From IMG/VR virus record IMGVR_UViG_3300020371_000005, positions 17,362 to 81,361 of that record: 64,000 bases of DNA, one strand, 5' to 3'. This document shows positions 16,974 to 54,700 of this stretch, in pieces. The position numbers were made by a program, and so were the translations under genes. The notes under the pieces are model-generated. The model made no database searches. It was not told the DNA's origin and was given only the letters and a program-made list of their open reading frames with translations. Source of the stretch: a virus. The stretch's first letter is position 1. Each line of letters starts with the position of its first letter.

Positions 16974-19900
16974 ATGGCACTAACTCGTCTTAAGAATATT
17001 ATCACGTCTAGGACGGGACGTATTATCTACGTCAACCCTGACGACTTCGATGCATCGGACGCATACGACAATAGAGGTAACTCGGCACTGCGTCCGTTCA
17101 AGACGTTGCAACGTGCCTTCCTTGAAGTGGCAAGGTTCTCCTATCGAGTTGGTCTGAGTAATGACGAATTCGATGCATTCTCCATTTACTTGTATCCTTC
17201 TGAGTATGTTCTAGATAATCGCCCTGGTACTTCTAACTTTAACGAGATTACTCCGTTTGACGAGAATACCAACTTTGATTTAACATCACCCAACAACATC
17301 TTATATAAGTTCAACTCTGTAAACGGTGGTATCATCTGCCCTAGAGGTGTTTCTGTTGTTGGTTCTGACCTTCGTCGTACGAAGATCATTCCTAAGTATG
17401 TGCCATATCCAACGATCAATGCATCGCTTGGTATCACATCTGCTAACGAACCTGGAACTTCTGCAATCTTCAGACTGACTGGTGGTTGTTATTTCTGGCA
17501 GATGTCATTCTTTGATGGTGACAACAATGGTGTTTACTATCGTCCTGACGTAACAGAGACGATTGCACCTAACTTCTCTCACCATAAGATCACTTGTTTC
17601 GAGTACGCTAACACAACTGATCTGGATCTTTATTACCAGAAGATCTCGAAAGCATACGCTACAATTCCTGATACCTCTGGTACGATTGCACAAGACCAGT
17701 TGCAAGCAAGGGTCGAAGAAAACAGAATCGTTGGTCCGATTTCCGACGAATTCCGTGTTTCTCAGATCATTAGAAACGGTCAAACTGCAACAGCATTTAC
17801 TGTTGATATTCAGGACAACCCAGTTAACCACGGTTTCTCTGTGGGTGTTGCTGTTAATATTTCTGGTGTTACTGGACCAACAGAAACCGACTCGAACCTG
17901 TATAATGGTTCTTTCCTTGTTACATCTGCACAGGGTAACCAGTTTACCTATCAGATGTCAGCAGAACCATCAGGTAACGCAATCGGTTCCAACGTTCTTG
18001 TGAAGGTTGAGATTGATACGGTTGACTCTGCATCACCTTATGTGTTTAACTGTTCATTGAGATCTGTTTGGGGTATCAATGGAATGCACGCCGATGGTGC
18101 TGAAGCAACTGGTTTCAAATCGATGGTTGTGGCACAGTTCACGGGTATCTCTCTCCAAAAAGATGACCGTGCTTTCGTGCTATATAACCCGTCAACAGGT
18201 AACTATGAAGCACAAGCGGCGGGATCTGGCGCACACATTAACGGTCTATGCAAATACCGTAAAGGATGGCGTCACGTTCATATCAAAGCATCCAACGACG
18301 CATTCATTCAGGTTGTGTCTGTGTTTGCTGTGGGATTTGGTGACCATTTCTTCAGTGATAGCGGTGGCGACCTTTCTATTACTAACAGTAACTCAAACTT
18401 CGGAAACACCTCCCTGCGATCCAAAGGATTTAAGTCAGCAGCGTTTACAAAGGATAAAGCAGGTCAGATAACACATATTATTCCACCTAAAGGAATCTCT
18501 GATGTTGCTGAGGTTTCTATTAACTGGGTGACATTTGATATTAACAAGATCCGTGCAGCAGCAGATCCTACAAAACTGTATCTGTACGGTTATACAAACG
18601 AGAACGCAAAACCCCCTAGTAAGATTCAGGGTTATACAATCGGTGCACGTAGAGATTCACCTACACTGCCTGATAAGATTAACGTTCTCTTGGTTGCATC
18701 TGGTGCAAACGCACCTACAACTCACACTGCAAAGATCGATCCCTCTGGTCCTACAGTGACGGGTACATCTCCTGGAGATGATGAATCCCCGATCAAGTAT
18801 GATCCTAACCAGTCTAACTGGTACTTGCAGGTTGACTCTGCAAACAATGACATTTATACTACTCTGATTGCGAACTCGCAGTATCAGAACCTGGGCTTTA
18901 CACCGACATCCTTCATCCGTCGTGTGCCTGATGCTCGTGACCTGAAGGACAGAATTTACCGTTTCCGCTACGTTCTTGACAAAGACGCATTCCCAATCCC
19001 CCGTGAACCCATTACTGGTTTCGTGGTGGAACCTAGATCTTCGGAGACGAACTCTCCTGCATATGATAAGACATACTACATCTACGAAGTAGAAACTTAT
19101 CAAGAGTTTGAGCGTGGTGTTGCTGATGGTATCTACTATCTGACATTCCTGAACGCATCGGTTTCTCCTGCAACGTCTAACTTCGACGACTTTGCATTCT
19201 CACAACAGACTGTTGACTTGTATCCTGCATTCGACAGAGACAACCCTGTTGCTGACCCTGGTCCTGCTATCTCTGTTGCAGATAATGATGTTCTGGGTCT
19301 GGTTAGAACAACTGATGGTGCAACTCCTACTCCTAATGAAGACACTAAACTGTCTATTACTAAGGAAACATCACAGTTCTTCCTGCTTGAGCAAGAGAAC
19401 AACCTTGGTTACAATACCACATCCAACACACTGAATAGTATTGTTGTTACTGCACGTTTGGGTGATGAGGAAGAAAGAAAGATTCCTTTGAAACTGAATG
19501 CAGACAACTCTGTTGCACCTATCCTCTGTGAATTGAGAAGATACTCGATTCTTAGAGCATCTGGTCACACGTTTGAGTATCTTGGTTTCGGTCCTGGTAA
19601 CTATTCAACTGCATTCCCATCTACTCAGGTGGAAGTGTTGTCACCAGCACAGGTTAGACTGTCACAGTCACTAAAAGAAGCAGCAGGTGTTGCATACTAC
19701 TCTGGTGTGAACTCTGATGGTGAACTGTTCGTTGGTAACCAGGTGATTAACCCTGTTACGGGTCAGATCACAAACGAAGATATTGCACAGTTGAATGTCT
19801 TGGGTGAAGAAGGTACAACTATTGAGACCTTCTCTGAGATCGTTCTTACCGACAAACTGACTGTTATCGGTGGTGCATCTAACCAGTTGGAATCTGTCTT

Positions 19901-38321: not shown

Positions 38322-38660
38322 ATGAACACCCAACTGAGACTAATGAACATCCAACTGACTAACATCCAACGCGACGAGTTGATTGTCAACGCGGTTGACC
38401 AAATTGTGGAGGATATGGATATTGACGCTCTTCAACAGTTTGTGAAAGAAACTCTCGCGGAGGGTTATAGTCAATGTGGTGATCTTGAGTTGCTTGATAC
38501 TGTGCTCCTAAATGTGTGTCACGACAATGTAGACGAGTTTGAAGAATTTGCTGAGGATGTACTCACTGAGGATCAACTCAATGTTTACATCGACGACAAC
38601 AATCAAGGCGTCTGGATTGACACTAAAGAAGAACCAAACGAGGCAACGGGATGGCAGTGA
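38322..38660 (+). CDS. acidic hypothetical protein (112 aa; start 38322 or 38343)
   Basis: The first 21 bases are nearly duplicated (ATGAACA-C/T-CCAACTGA twice), so translation could start at ATG 38322 or ATG 38343. The product is acidic and helical (VDQIVEDMDIDALQQFVKET ... DEFEEFAEDVLTEDQLNVYI). Function unknown. Confidence 0.45.
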   Translation: MNTQLRLMNIQLTNIQRDELIVNAVDQIVEDMDIDALQQFVKETLAEGYSQCGDLELLDTVLLNVCHDNVDEFEEFAEDVLTEDQLNVYIDDNNQGVWIDTKEEPNEATGWQ

Positions 38661-38710
38661 CACTTTGAGAATTGGTTTTCCCGTTTTGTATCACCACGAA
38701 CTACCGCGCC
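38656..38710 (+). promoter_or_regulatory. promoter-like element E5 / intergenic repeat copy A
   Basis: Contains AGTGACACT (38656-38664) and, from 38674, a 22-base segment identical to one at 39690, starting GGTTTTCCCGTTTTGTATC. A related GAACTACC and CCCC follow in both copies. TATCAC at 38689-38694 is at the -10 position of the other elements. Confidence 0.5.
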
Positions 38711-38735
38711 CCAGGATCTGTGCAATCATACTGGT

Positions 38736-39670: not shown

Positions 39671-39760
39671 AGTGGACGGTTTCCCAAGTGGTTTTCCCGT
39701 TTTGTATCACCGTGAACTACCTGACCCCTTGGGAACCTGTATATTAAAAGAGTCAAAGAA
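39671..39760 (+). promoter_or_regulatory. promoter-like element E6 / intergenic repeat copy B
   Basis: Contains AGTGGAC (39671-39677), the 22-base repeat shared with 38674 (here from 39690), then a second promoter-like stretch TGTATATTAAAAGAGTCAAAG (39738-39758) that shares the AGAGTCAAAG leader of E2 and E3. It precedes ATG 39771. Confidence 0.5.
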
Positions 39761-40382: not shown

Positions 40383-41027
40383 ATGCCTAACTTATCGGAC
40401 AATTTTGAGTCGATTGCAACAACTAACGTCTACGGCGTGTTTCTAACACCTATTGGCGTATATCGTAATCCAGACCATAAAGAACATAAACAAATAATTC
40501 TTGACTATATTCGGTCAATGAATCCCGAAGATGTGAACGTCTCGCCCCGTTCAGATATTAACACTGGTATCAAGCAATTAGGCGGGATGAATATACTAAT
40601 GACCCCAGAGTTAGCACCAATCAGAGAGACCATCTCTAAGGCGATTCTAGAGGTCAATGACGGAGGATTAGCATACGATATGAAACAACCAGTCCTCACA
40701 GATTCTGTTCTTGAGTTAGCAGATAAGGGATCATTCTACGCGCCCCACGAATACTCCAACACCGTCTATAGTGGCGTCTATTATGTTAATTTTGACCACG
40801 ATCAACATAGTCAACTAAAGTGGAAAAGATGCATCGGTTCGCCTTTCTATCCGATCGTACAAATGCCACAAACTAAGATCACTCCTTTCAATCAGTTAGA
40901 TACACAAATTCCCACAGAAGAGGGAGACATTGTTATCTTCCCCTCTAATCTTTCCCACGGGTATGAATCAAACACTCACGGGAATAGAATTACTTTGTCC
41001 TTTAATGTTGCCCCTTGGTCAGAATGA
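40383..41027 (+). CDS. 2OG-Fe(II) oxygenase (TIGR02466/PF13759-like)
   Basis: This 214-residue protein starts MPNLSDNFESIATTNVYGVF, the usual opening of this family (LFPTPI-like GVFLTPIGVYR). Metal ligands are H122 in YAPHEYSNTVYSGVYYV (H-E-Y replaces the usual H-x-H) and H192 in IVIFPSNLSHGYESN, with GNRITLSFNVAPW carrying the 2OG arginine. Stands apart from the main cassette, next to an HNH endonuclease whose start overlaps its stop. Confidence 0.75.
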   Translation: MPNLSDNFESIATTNVYGVFLTPIGVYRNPDHKEHKQIILDYIRSMNPEDVNVSPRSDINTGIKQLGGMNILMTPELAPIRETISKAILEVNDGGLAYDMKQPVLTDSVLELADKGSFYAPHEYSNTVYSGVYYVNFDHDQHSQLKWKRCIGSPFYPIVQMPQTKITPFNQLDTQIPTEEGDIVIFPSNLSHGYESNTHGNRITLSFNVAPWSE

Positions 41028-41359
41028 ATCCATTTACTAAAATCAACGAAAATACCTACCAAGATATGGCAGGAGTGTTATACAAACCTATCCCACAATA
41101 CGAAGATTATTTTGTATCAAGTGATGGAGAGATCTATTCAACTAAGTGGGGTAAATGGAAACGCCTTAAAGTTCATCTAAATGAAAACGGTTATAGAAGA
41201 GTAACCCTCAGACAAGAGGGGCGGACAGTAGTAAGAAGATGCGCTAGATTGACCGCTCTTGCTTTTCATCCTGCGGAGTCTAATCATACCAACGTTTTTC
41301 ACATCGACGGAGACAAAGTGAACGACCATTATACTAACTTAAGATGGGGAACAGAGTGA
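41024..41359 (+). CDS. NUMOD4/HNH-type homing endonuclease
   Basis: This 111-residue protein shows the NUMOD4 module YKPIPQYEDYFVSSDGEIYS, then GYRRVTLRQEGRTVVRRCAR, and an HNH-like core VFHIDGDKVNDHYTNLRWGT in the pattern V-x-HIDG-x-K-x-N-x-x-x-NL-x-W-x-T. It is a free-standing phage homing endonuclease. Its ATG overlaps the stop of the oxygenase gene. One asparagine of the usual HNH core is replaced, so activity is not assured. Confidence 0.75.
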   Translation: MNPFTKINENTYQDMAGVLYKPIPQYEDYFVSSDGEIYSTKWGKWKRLKVHLNENGYRRVTLRQEGRTVVRRCARLTALAFHPAESNHTNVFHIDGDKVNDHYTNLRWGTE

Positions 41360-41362
41360 TAG

Positions 41363-41407
41363 TTTTCCACAATGTTTTCCACAAAAGGTATCAATCTCTG
41401 TGGAAAA
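41363..41407 (+). promoter_or_regulatory. cluster of three cyanobacterial-type DnaA boxes
   Basis: TTTTCCACA occurs exactly at 41363-41371 and 41375-41383 and as its complement TGTGGAAAA at 41399-41407. TTTTCCACA is the reported DnaA-box consensus of Synechococcus-type origins. The second and third copies also form a nine-base hairpin. AT-rich DNA follows (41408-41453). No T-run, so not a terminator. Confidence 0.45.
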
Positions 41408-41414
41408 TAAATGG

Positions 41415-41421
41415 TTAAATA
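41415..41421 (+). promoter_or_regulatory. possible late promoter TTAAATA
   Basis: TTAAATAAATATA lies in the AT-rich stretch after the DnaA-like boxes, 33 bases before the next small ORF. Weaker match than CTAAATA. Confidence 0.3.
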
Positions 41422-41453
41422 AATATACTCTCGAATTTTATCTTTCGCCTTAA

Positions 41454-41576
41454 ATGTACGGAACTGATGTGACCTTAGACTCTACTCTATCGCGAGACAG
41501 TTGTCAACACTTAGAGGACGAAGAGAAATTCACACAAACTATTGACATTTTCGGAGGTTTTCCTTATAGTTCCTAA
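41454..41576 (+). CDS. possible small protein (40 aa)
   Basis: Starts MYGTDVTLDSTLSRDSCQHL and ends FGGFPYSS. Its 3' part coincides with a sigma70-type promoter. No ribosome site seen, so low confidence. Confidence 0.25.
   Translation: MYGTDVTLDSTLSRDSCQHLEDEEKFTQTIDIFGGFPYSS
41542..41570 (+). promoter_or_regulatory. consensus sigma70 promoter TTGACA-N17-TATAGT
   Basis: TTGACA at 41542-41547 and TATAGT at 41565-41570 with the ideal 17-base spacer; the best host-type promoter in the window. Transcription would start near 41577, ahead of the 64-residue basic protein. Likely an early promoter. Confidence 0.7.
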
Positions 41577-41611: not shown

Positions 41612-41806
41612 ATGGGTCGCACTTACAAACGCAACGACACGTATAGGTCAAATAGACCGAAATCTTTGAGGGAAAAACGATCAACAAGAACCCGCACTAA
41701 GTATGATCAATTCAATGACACATACAAGGGTGAACAACACAATCGAACAAACAGTAAGCAACAACTAGACAACAATGATTTCGACGGAGATGTATTCAAT
41801 GGTTGA
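41612..41806 (+). CDS. small basic hypothetical protein (64 aa)
   Basis: Starts MGRTYKRNDTYRSNRPKSLR, very rich in Arg/Lys/Asn, with an acidic end (NDFDGDVFNG). Charge suggests nucleic-acid binding. First gene behind the consensus promoter. Function unknown. Confidence 0.45.
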   Translation: MGRTYKRNDTYRSNRPKSLREKRSTRTRTKYDQFNDTYKGEQHNRTNSKQQLDNNDFDGDVFNG

Positions 41807-51781: not shown

Positions 51782-54700
51782 ATGAAGGCAGTAACCGTAT
51801 CTCAGAGAGTACAGGATCAAATTCCTGCATTCATTAAGGAAGACAACGAACAGTTTGTCAATCTTCTTGCCGAATATTACCGTTCGCAAGAGAAACCTGG
51901 TCGTCCGTACGATATTCTCAACAATATCTTGAGATATACGGACATCGGTTCTGGTGAGTTTGATCCTAACTTCCTGTCTTCGGAATCTGCTGTTCTGAGC
52001 GCGGTTGACCCATATCAAAATACTATTGTTGCCGAAAACGTAAACTACTTCCTTGAGAAGGACGGCACACTCAAGATCGACGATGAGATCATATATTACG
52101 AGTCGATCACACATTCGCCAGACGTTGTTTTCACTCCTGGTGTTAATAAAGAAGAATTTGATCGTAAGATTCAAGAATTTGAACCGATTTCATCTCAGTT
52201 CGACGGTTCTACCACAGAATTTAATCTGAAACTGTTGGGTGACCCAGTTTCGCCACAATCTGCTGATCACCTGCTGGTTATCGTCAATAATGAATTTCAG
52301 TTCCCAAATAGGGACTATTTTGTTGAGGGTGATCGTATTCGCTTTGTAAACCCTCCTGTAGCGCCTACAGGTGCTCTTACTGGTGCTCTTAATACTATCA
52401 GGTACCTGATTGGTTATACAAGCGTTCCTGTCCGTTCTCTGGACCCTATTTCTGTTGCTGCTGATTCTAATCAGTTCCATCTTACAAGAAATACTCAACC
52501 TTATCAACCACTGTCAACGATTGCTTCGATTGTTGTCGTTAATAGAGTTGAGAAGAGACCCTTTGAAGAATTCACGATCTTTGAAGACAAGATCATTTTC
52601 AAAGAAACTCTTGGTGCAGGATCGACAGTTGATGTTAGATCTGTCGAACTGATCGCTCCCGAATTCGGTGCTGATGCCGAAGCAGTCGTCAAAGTTCAAA
52701 ATGGTGAAGTAGAAGACATCATCGTTAAGGATGGTGGTTCTGGATACAGAATGAGTTTCTCTCCCAAGGTTACTATTGCATCAAACCTTGGTACTGGTAG
52801 CGATGCTACTGCAGAGGCACTTGTCAATGGTATCAAGAATGTTAGTCTTCTGTTTTCTGGTCAAGGTTATAGCGCAAACAACCCACCATTGGTTGAAGTC
52901 GATGCTCCTGCAGATCCCGAAGGTAAAACTGCTAGAATCACTGCAACTGTTAGTGATGACATTGAAGGTGTCGTTCAGCTGAATGTTCTGTCTTCTGGTT
53001 CTGGATATGACAGAATTCCTTCTATTAAGTTCACGAATCCTGGTGGTGCAATCATCAGTGGTCCCACTTTGACAGATGGAAGAATCGATGCAGATTCTTT
53101 CACTGTTGTTGATCGTGGTGGTGGATATACTACTGCTCCTCTCGTATACATCGATCCTCCAACGGGTTCAAATGCAATCGTTGCATCCGTTATGGCACAC
53201 CTCGATGCTGACGGTAGACTCGACAGAATTGAAGTTCTCAGTGGTGGTCAAGGATACGAAACTGTTCCTAGAGCAAAAATCATTGATCCTGTTGGCGCAC
53301 AGATTCTCGATGTGAATGTTACTGGTGGCAGAGTCACCAACATCGAACTGTTGACTGGTGGTAAAGGTTATACCGATGCACCTTCTGTGTATATCGTCGA
53401 TAACCGCAAAGACGTTGCTAATAATCCTATTGGTGGTACTGGTGCAACAGCAGTTGCTACCATCTTTAACGGTGAAATCACCGACATCAACATTACCAGT
53501 TTCGGTGAGGGTTACTCCGATACTGAACCTCCAAAGGTTTTCATCGCTGCACCTCCTGCACCTGAGGCATCTTGTGATGTTGGTTTTGGTGAAATTACTG
53601 GTTTCACTATTCATAACGCTGGATCTGGTTATCAACCCTCTGCTTTTGTAAATTGTAAGCGTGGTGTTTCCGCTGTTTCAGCGTATTCTCAGAAAGGAAA
53701 CCAAATTTACAGCAAAGAGTCCGACACAATTCAGTCTTCTCACGCTGTTGGTTCGACTATTCACAACCTTGACAACCTGTTTGCCAAGGAACTTTATCGT
53801 AGATATATCAATCAGTATCTGCCAAATGCAGAAATTGACTATAATAAAGTAAATGCTCCGCAGATCATTAAGACGATCAGCGACTTCTACTCTTCAAAAG
53901 GTACGAAAATCTCCACACAGTATCTGTTCAAGATGCTGTTCTCGGAGAATGTTGATGTTTCATACCCGAAAGATGAGGTTATCAAACCATCTGCCGCAAC
54001 TTGGAACGTCGATACCGTCCTTCGTGCGGAACTTTTGAGTGGTGATCCGCGTGATTTGCTGGATTCACAGTTGTTCCAATACCGAGATGCGGTTGATACG
54101 ACTGTTGGCGCGGCATCTGCACTGATTGAAAACGTGATTGCGATCAATACTGGTGTAGGCACCGTGTATGAACTCGCAATTTCTGAAGAAACTCTGCAAG
54201 GTCAGTTCTCTATTCCGTATAAGACGACTCTGGTTGAGGCACTTGACACTACAGAAAGTATTATTACGGTTGACTCTACGATTGGTTGGCCAGAAAGAAA
54301 CGGAACAATCCGTATCAATGATGAAGAAGTTGTTCAATATAAGGAAAAAACACTCAACCAGTTCATTGAATGTACTCGTTCTAAGAACGGTGTTGTAGAA
54401 GATTGGGATGCTGGCACGCAAATTTACTCCGATGTCTTTGTTTATGTCAATCGGGGTGCGACAAATGAACTGAAACTGCGCGTTCTGGGTATTGCAGACG
54501 CTAAGTCTACGGTTCTTTCCGACACAGGTTCTTACTATCTGCCTGGTGACAAACTGAATGTTGCGTCTCTTGGTTCTACAAGTGACGATCAAAGAATCAC
54601 ATCTTGGTTGTACAACGTTAAGAAACTGATTCAGGTTACTGGTATTGTCCCTGGTGGTCTCAATAACCAAACTGCAACTGTTACTTGCTCCAATAACCAC

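Follow-up and report, generated by a model that had tools for sequence, protein, structure and literature searches.

In cyanobacteria the accepted DnaA box is the nine-base word TTTTCCACA (PMC4674748; PMC2275245), and domain IV of the Cyanothece DnaA protein binds paired boxes of this sequence in vitro (PMC4674748). Arrays of consensus boxes are also found outside oriC, and in Escherichia coli such an array, datA, titrates DnaA (PMC5835720). Moreover, DnaA is described as a transcription factor (PMC8203912). Among the T4-like cyanophages, Syn9 has a predicted theta origin, a single one (Weigele et al., 2007, as cited in PMC2984593, where the citing passage gives no location), and according to the same review this prediction stands for Syn9 only, the start of replication in other cyanomyoviruses being unknown (PMC2984593). 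A search of open papers found no earlier report of DnaA boxes in cyanophages; prior notice in subscription papers, which lay outside this search, is possible.

The locus described here lies in a window of 64,000 nt, the whole stretch of DNA that was analysed, which corresponds to positions 17,362 to 81,361 of the virus record IMGVR_UViG_3300020371_000005 (full record 81,361 bases). A sequence-only reading of this DNA had proposed a possible origin or DnaA decoy at 41363-41453, consisting of two direct and one inverted copy of TTTTCCACA in 45 bases, followed by AT-rich DNA and, about 135 bases past the boxes, a sigma70 promoter. All three components were recovered: the boxes by exact match, the AT-rich DNA at 41408-41443 by a duplex stability close to the lowest in the window, and the promoter as TTGACA-17-TATAGT with 11 of 12 matches. 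The reported interval covers a real feature, but the conserved part runs further, to about 41570. The complete element is intergenic, measures about 200 bp, is present once per genome and shows the order box array, AT-rich block, two more conserved blocks (CTTAG... and TTGTCAAC) and sigma70-type promoter. Its parts and neighbours in the window are as follows:

41024..41359, + strand, HNH/NUMOD4 endonuclease-like ORF, upstream neighbour outside the element
41363..41371, + strand, DnaA-type box 1, exact match to the word TTTTCCACA
41375..41383, + strand, DnaA-type box 2, exact TTTTCCACA, its start 12 bp from the start of box 1
41399..41407, - strand, DnaA-type box 3, exact TTTTCCACA, 24 bp from box 2
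41408..41443, + strand, block 2, AT-rich, consensus TAAATGnTTAAATAAACATAnTTGTGTGTTnTAT, candidate DNA-unwinding element (alignments, duplex stability)
41467..41492, + strand, block 3, conserved GTTGTTGTCTTAGAnCGTAACCTATCGA, window form GATGTGACCTTAGACTCTACTCTATC (alignments)
41500..41519, + strand, block 4, conserved GTTGTCAACAC...GGAC (alignments, profile match)
41542..41570, + strand, sigma70-type early promoter TTGACA-17-TATAGT (11 of 12 matches; conserved in relatives)
41612..41806, + strand, small ORF MGRTYKRND..., downstream neighbour, one of several unrelated downstream genes

The box array starts 3 bp past the stop of the HNH/NUMOD4 ORF, and a profile of blocks 2-4 matches the window at 41407-41519 with an E value of 2.9e-22. 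Block 2 lies at the 0.01-0.04 percentile of duplex stability in the window. The AT-rich block is among the least stable sites also in S-WAM1, S-SZBM1 and S-PM2, but shows no unusual instability in Syn19, S-SM1, S-SSM5 and S-SM2 (3-17 percentile), of which Syn19, S-SSM5 and S-SM2 come much closer to the average. The cyanophage late promoter NATAAATA was considered as the meaning of this block and rejected because the word is not conserved among the aligned named phages; in the alignments, AATAAATA is present in the window copy and absent from S-WAM1, S-SZBM1, Syn19 and others. Elsewhere in the window, a 54-bp direct repeat (38659-38712 and 39675-39728, 80% identical, 1016 bp apart, core TGGTTTTCCCGTTTTGTATCACC) was observed, the two copies of which lie near the starts of neighbouring small ORFs.

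The number of boxes must be distinguished from their arrangement. TTTTCCACA occurs three times in the whole 81,361-base record, and all three copies fall inside the 45 bp at 41363-41407. Three copies in 64 kb are an ordinary total (1.4 expected in the window; at least three in 17 of 100 shuffles), as a chance cluster in AT-rich DNA would have it. Against such an accident stands the clustering itself, since the probability that three random positions in 64 kb lie within 36 bp of each other is about 1e-6. The word is moreover conserved in clustered form. When every 9-mer was counted in 12 T4-like cyanophage genomes, with a cluster defined as at least two copies in 50 bp, TTTTCCACA ranked first of all 9-mers with clusters in 9 of the 12 genomes; the runner-up reached 6, and most clustered 9-mers were clustered in one genome each. 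Together with the enrichment at the elements described below, these values led us to reject chance, the probability of which we regard as practically negligible, and the sequence-only reading was right to place the cluster beyond it, given the clustering probability and the conservation across marine T4-like cyanophages.

In these genomes the TTTTCCACA clusters occupy a single place, with a second cluster nearby in S-ShM2 and S-SZBM1; none was found in T4, KVP40, HTVC008M, Syn5, P-SSP7, Ma-LMM01 and S-CRM01. The place of the element, in the window as well as in the box-bearing genomes examined, is between the cyanophage helicase gene and gene 25. In Syn9 it is found at about 52.6 kb (52.55-52.71 kb), in Syn19 at 50.6 kb and in S-PM2 at 19.2 kb. 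S-SZBM1, the nearest named relative in this region, has the same layout, and its element follows a homologue of the 2OG-Fe(II) oxygenase gene located before the HNH ORF of the window. Ordered blocks are visible in an alignment of 28 sequences, and the same block order is found in nine named phages, several of which have quite different neighbouring genes. At loci with the MGRTYKRND ORF, the box arrays lie about 200-270 bp upstream of the ORF start in most lineages.

Several variants of this layout were observed. An HNH/NUMOD4 ORF directly adjoins the element in one lineage. Three loci with an HNH/NUMOD4-family upstream neighbour (L162, L172 and L174) lack the boxes and keep the other blocks, as if the gene had invaded or been extended at the expense of the boxes. 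In some lineages, a second TTTTCCACA set, absent in the window, lies within or close to the beginning of the downstream gene, some 300 bp past the AT-rich block (L124:5114-5134; S-ShM2 53068-53092; L147, L136-L142, L179 and others, at about +99 to +125 of the MGRTYKRND ORF). A cluster in S-SKS1 (NC_020851, about 151.3-151.6 kb; L467) mixes TTTTCCACA with two copies of TTATCCACA, the E. coli consensus; next to it are AT-rich DNA and a tandem repeat of about four copies, with a unit of about 25 bp, and it matches the element profile only weakly.

The association of the boxes with the remaining blocks was also assessed with tools from which the boxes had been left out. The profile of blocks 2-4, trained on metagenome contigs only and with the boxes excluded, lands on the box clusters in named genomes. 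The sequence-only model R1 gave a single strong match in the window and likewise in each of 13 cyanophages (Syn1, Syn9, Syn19, S-SM1, S-SM2, S-SSM5, S-ShM2, S-WAM1, S-SZBM1, S-PM2, S-RSM4, P-RSM4 and P-SSM4), weak matches at plausible places in P-SSM2 and P-HM2, weak and seemingly spurious ones in T4, HTVC008M, S-TIM5 and P-SSP7, and no match in KVP40, Syn5, Ma-LMM01 and S-CRM01. The matches in S-SZBM1 and S-PM2 are not independent because the training set of R1 (n=22) includes S-SZBM1 and a contig identical to S-PM2. Syn1, which was outside both training and motif choice, carries, immediately next to its R1 match, three boxes at 12-bp intervals.

In a non-redundant set of elements picked by block 3-4 alone, all 27 of 27 carry an exact box and 26 carry two or more, a 142-fold enrichment over flanking DNA. 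A larger set of 80 metagenome elements, again chosen without reference to the boxes, comprises 62 with at least one box, 52 with at least two and 18 with none, and the enrichment over the flanks is 56-fold. Boxes at the elements thus occur 56 to 142 times as often as in the flanks, and not at the background frequency that the sequence-only reading had allowed for. Their distribution shows a sharp maximum no more than 50 bp from the AT-rich block and minor ones near +300 and -250. Since the element copies are orthologues, these counts show conservation and not independent origins.

The genes around the element are far less constant. By sequence, the first ORFs downstream form 26 groups and the upstream ORFs 32, numbers that include many singletons that may be false ORFs; seven of the downstream groups have at least two members. 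Because the neighbouring ORFs are distributed over so many groups, the element is not tied to one gene. This bears on transcription control, in which the array and blocks 3-4 would let host DnaA or another factor tune the early promoter. Nearly every copy has a sigma70-type promoter after the blocks, and in L157, and by eye also in L130 and L158, a box sits between the -35 and -10 hexamers, a position that would allow DnaA to block the early promoter. In the window, however, no box overlaps the promoter, such spacer boxes are limited to few relatives, and the boxes lie about 135-180 bp upstream of it in either orientation. Furthermore, the gene to be regulated changes among many unrelated families while the element stays, and S-PM2 keeps boxes and blocks without a good promoter at this place. 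Regulation of the promoter is therefore a possible explanation, though a rather unlikely one.

The geometry of the arrays is informative in another respect. Box orientation varies (+-, ++, ++-, +--, --+, --, +++, --- and others), the arrangement +- being the commonest (27 of 80 elements). In the same 80 elements, boxes of the same orientation are spaced by 12 bp (commonest) or 21-22 bp and boxes of opposite orientation by 23-24 bp (commonest) or 31 bp. To judge from these sequences, free orientation combined with quantised spacing fits cooperative binding of a protein on the helix. An alternative is that boxes 2 and 3 form an RNA or DNA hairpin, a terminator or an attenuator; the window copy can indeed fold (z -3.2), and the prevalence of +- would be in line with it. 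Yet arrays of one orientation (++, --, +++, ---), which are unable to self-pair, are common, the box words stay canonical without co-variation, no T-run follows the stem of boxes 2 and 3, and RNA structure prediction gives no pairs for blocks 2-4. The compensatory changes that the sequence-only reading had offered as an alternative are thus not seen, and with orientation varying and co-variation absent, a hairpin or terminator was rejected as very improbable. A known RNA family was likewise rejected, as the element has no Rfam match. Variable orientation, quantised spacing and changing neighbours make the element look like a protein-bound DNA site, and not like a hairpin or the operator of one gene.

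As to the protein, the origins of the hosts provide a comparison. At least two boxes (up to one mismatch) are present in the 400 bp before dnaN in 24 of 26 picocyanobacteria, a 63-fold enrichment over background. Exact TTTTCCACA is found in 11 of these 26 oriC regions, and TTTTCCCCA is the commonest single form. The phage word is hence identical to one present in host oriC, in agreement with its initial assignment as a cyanobacterial DnaA-type box. A DnaA-trio of the CTACTACTA type occurs in 14 of the 26 host oriC regions and is absent from the phage element alignments, so that the element was rejected as a copy of host oriC including the trio. In L319, L320, L322, L339 and other host loci, an CTACTACTACGG tract lies beside a DnaA box about 120-155 bp before dnaN; this tract is a likely DnaA-trio of picocyanobacterial oriC.

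The C-terminal, box-binding domain of DnaA was detected in the host WH7803 but not in any of the 14 phages tested or in the window record, and a phage-encoded DnaA domain was accordingly rejected. Since the word equals the cyanobacterial DnaA box, is enriched in host oriC and meets no phage DnaA domain, host DnaA is the likeliest binder of the array. The boxes could instead be read by a different protein with affinity for this word, encoded by the phage or by the host, and most cyanophage genes near the element lack an assigned function; the identity of the word with the cyanobacterial DnaA consensus, its enrichment in host oriC (PMC4674748) and the missing phage DnaA domain make such a protein unlikely.

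Not every core is accompanied by boxes. Five related phages, S-RSM4, P-SSM4, P-HM2, P-SSM2 and P-RSM4, keep the core without exact boxes, so that box use cannot be universal. When phages with a recognisable core were compared (S-SKS1, with no clear core match, was left out), arrays of at least two exact boxes beside the core were found in 10 of 11 phages isolated from, or named after, Synechococcus vs 0 of 4 isolated from Prochlorococcus (Fisher p 0.004, from small numbers and uncorrected for relatedness); the record of S-RSM4 names no host. TTTTCCACA also occurs in the oriC regions of low GC content (Prochlorococcus-like). That box presence tracks the isolation host is a lead only.

What is kept amid changing genes, namely one copy at a constant place with initiator boxes, an AT-rich stretch and a promoter, suggests a site needed by the whole genome, either an origin or an early initiation site. 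We consider it a serious possibility, just short of probable, that the element is a replication origin or early initiation site that recruits host DnaA. In such a scheme, host DnaA would occupy the helically phased boxes in a cooperative manner and destabilise the AT-rich block next to them. Opening of the DNA for the phage's own T4-type replisome would be aided by transcription from the sigma70 promoter, which lies about 135 bp downstream; the five phages with a core and no exact boxes would use the core in another way. DnaA as the binder, melting of the AT-rich block and a replication start at the element are the steps that we infer.

The other possibility raised at the outset was a decoy. 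In a datA-like manner, phage copies could sequester or inactivate host DnaA and thereby stop new rounds of host replication. Consensus-box arrays outside oriC do titrate DnaA in E. coli (PMC5835720), and many relatives carry extra boxes at a distance of about 300 bp on the downstream or 250 bp on the upstream side. Nevertheless, there are only 2-5 boxes at one place per genome, a decoy needs no ordered AT-rich block, blocks 3-4, promoter or fixed place, and titration would take effect only after the phage DNA has multiplied. A decoy fits less well because one site with 2-3 boxes would bind away little DnaA before the phage has reached a high copy number, and we judge it distinctly improbable; an origin fits the single copy, the fixed place and the changing neighbours better.

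Some observations count against an origin. Support from GC skew was looked for and not found: in nine genomes there is no switch at the element, and in four of them the largest change lies at about 41-45 kb, upstream of the element. Recombination-based replication of T4-like phages would blur a switch in strand composition. Among Syn19, S-SM1, S-SSM5, S-ShM2 and S-SM2, the largest skew change was in several cases near the helicase gene, 4-15 kb upstream of the element. Besides the lack of a skew switch, the missing DnaA-trio, an AT-rich block that is unexceptional in some phages and the five box-less cores speak against the origin, as does the fact that T4-like phages have DnaA-independent origins.

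A conserved element of 200 bp with host-type boxes provides a precise place and a host factor for the question of where replication starts in T4-like cyanophages. More far-reaching, and on balance doubtful, is the proposal that a lytic T4-like lineage starts replication at a host-DnaA-dependent origin, coupling T4-type replication to the host initiator and the cell cycle, with gain and loss of boxes following the host. If true, abundant ocean viruses would depend on a host initiator that T4 does not use, and the boxes may be relevant to host range and the timing of infection. As a DNA marker, the element could also help to recognise these phages.

Compared with described systems, the element resembles the dnaN-adjacent cyanobacterial oriC (Cyanothece 51142, Synechococcus elongatus, picocyanobacteria) in its intergenic TTTTCCACA array and AT-rich DNA. 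Unlike host oriC, it has neither an adjoining dnaN or dnaA gene nor the CTACTACTA DnaA-trio, its boxes are mostly more tightly spaced (12-31 bp vs roughly 10-130 bp), and it possesses two extra conserved blocks and an early promoter that were unseen in the host origins inspected. With T4 oriF (ori-uvsY) it shares the T4-type phage background, a promoter, intergenic DNA and the vicinity of gene 25, which oriF adjoins and which the cyanophage element precedes by 1.5-8 kb. However, oriF, an origin of the type in which the transcript of a promoter primes synthesis by an R-loop, works with the uvsY transcript and lacks a cluster of DnaA boxes. The gene orders are not homologous either, as the helicase next to the cyanophage element is not UvsW; tblastn shows it to be a different helicase (T4-like GC 36), and a positional counterpart of T4 oriF was therefore rejected. 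Cyanophage uvsY and uvsW are located elsewhere, mostly at 80-125 kb (tblastn).

Like datA of E. coli, the element is a cluster of consensus DnaA boxes outside oriC; it differs in having fewer boxes, no known IHF site, fixed blocks and an adjoining promoter. P1 oriR and pSC101 have host DnaA boxes beside AT-rich DNA, as does the cyanophage element, and in addition iterons and a Rep protein of their own; here no iterons or Rep gene were seen, and the phages are lytic and T4-like. The theta origin predicted for Syn9, as far as the citing review describes it, belongs to the same phage group and would be the same thing as the element if its location agrees.
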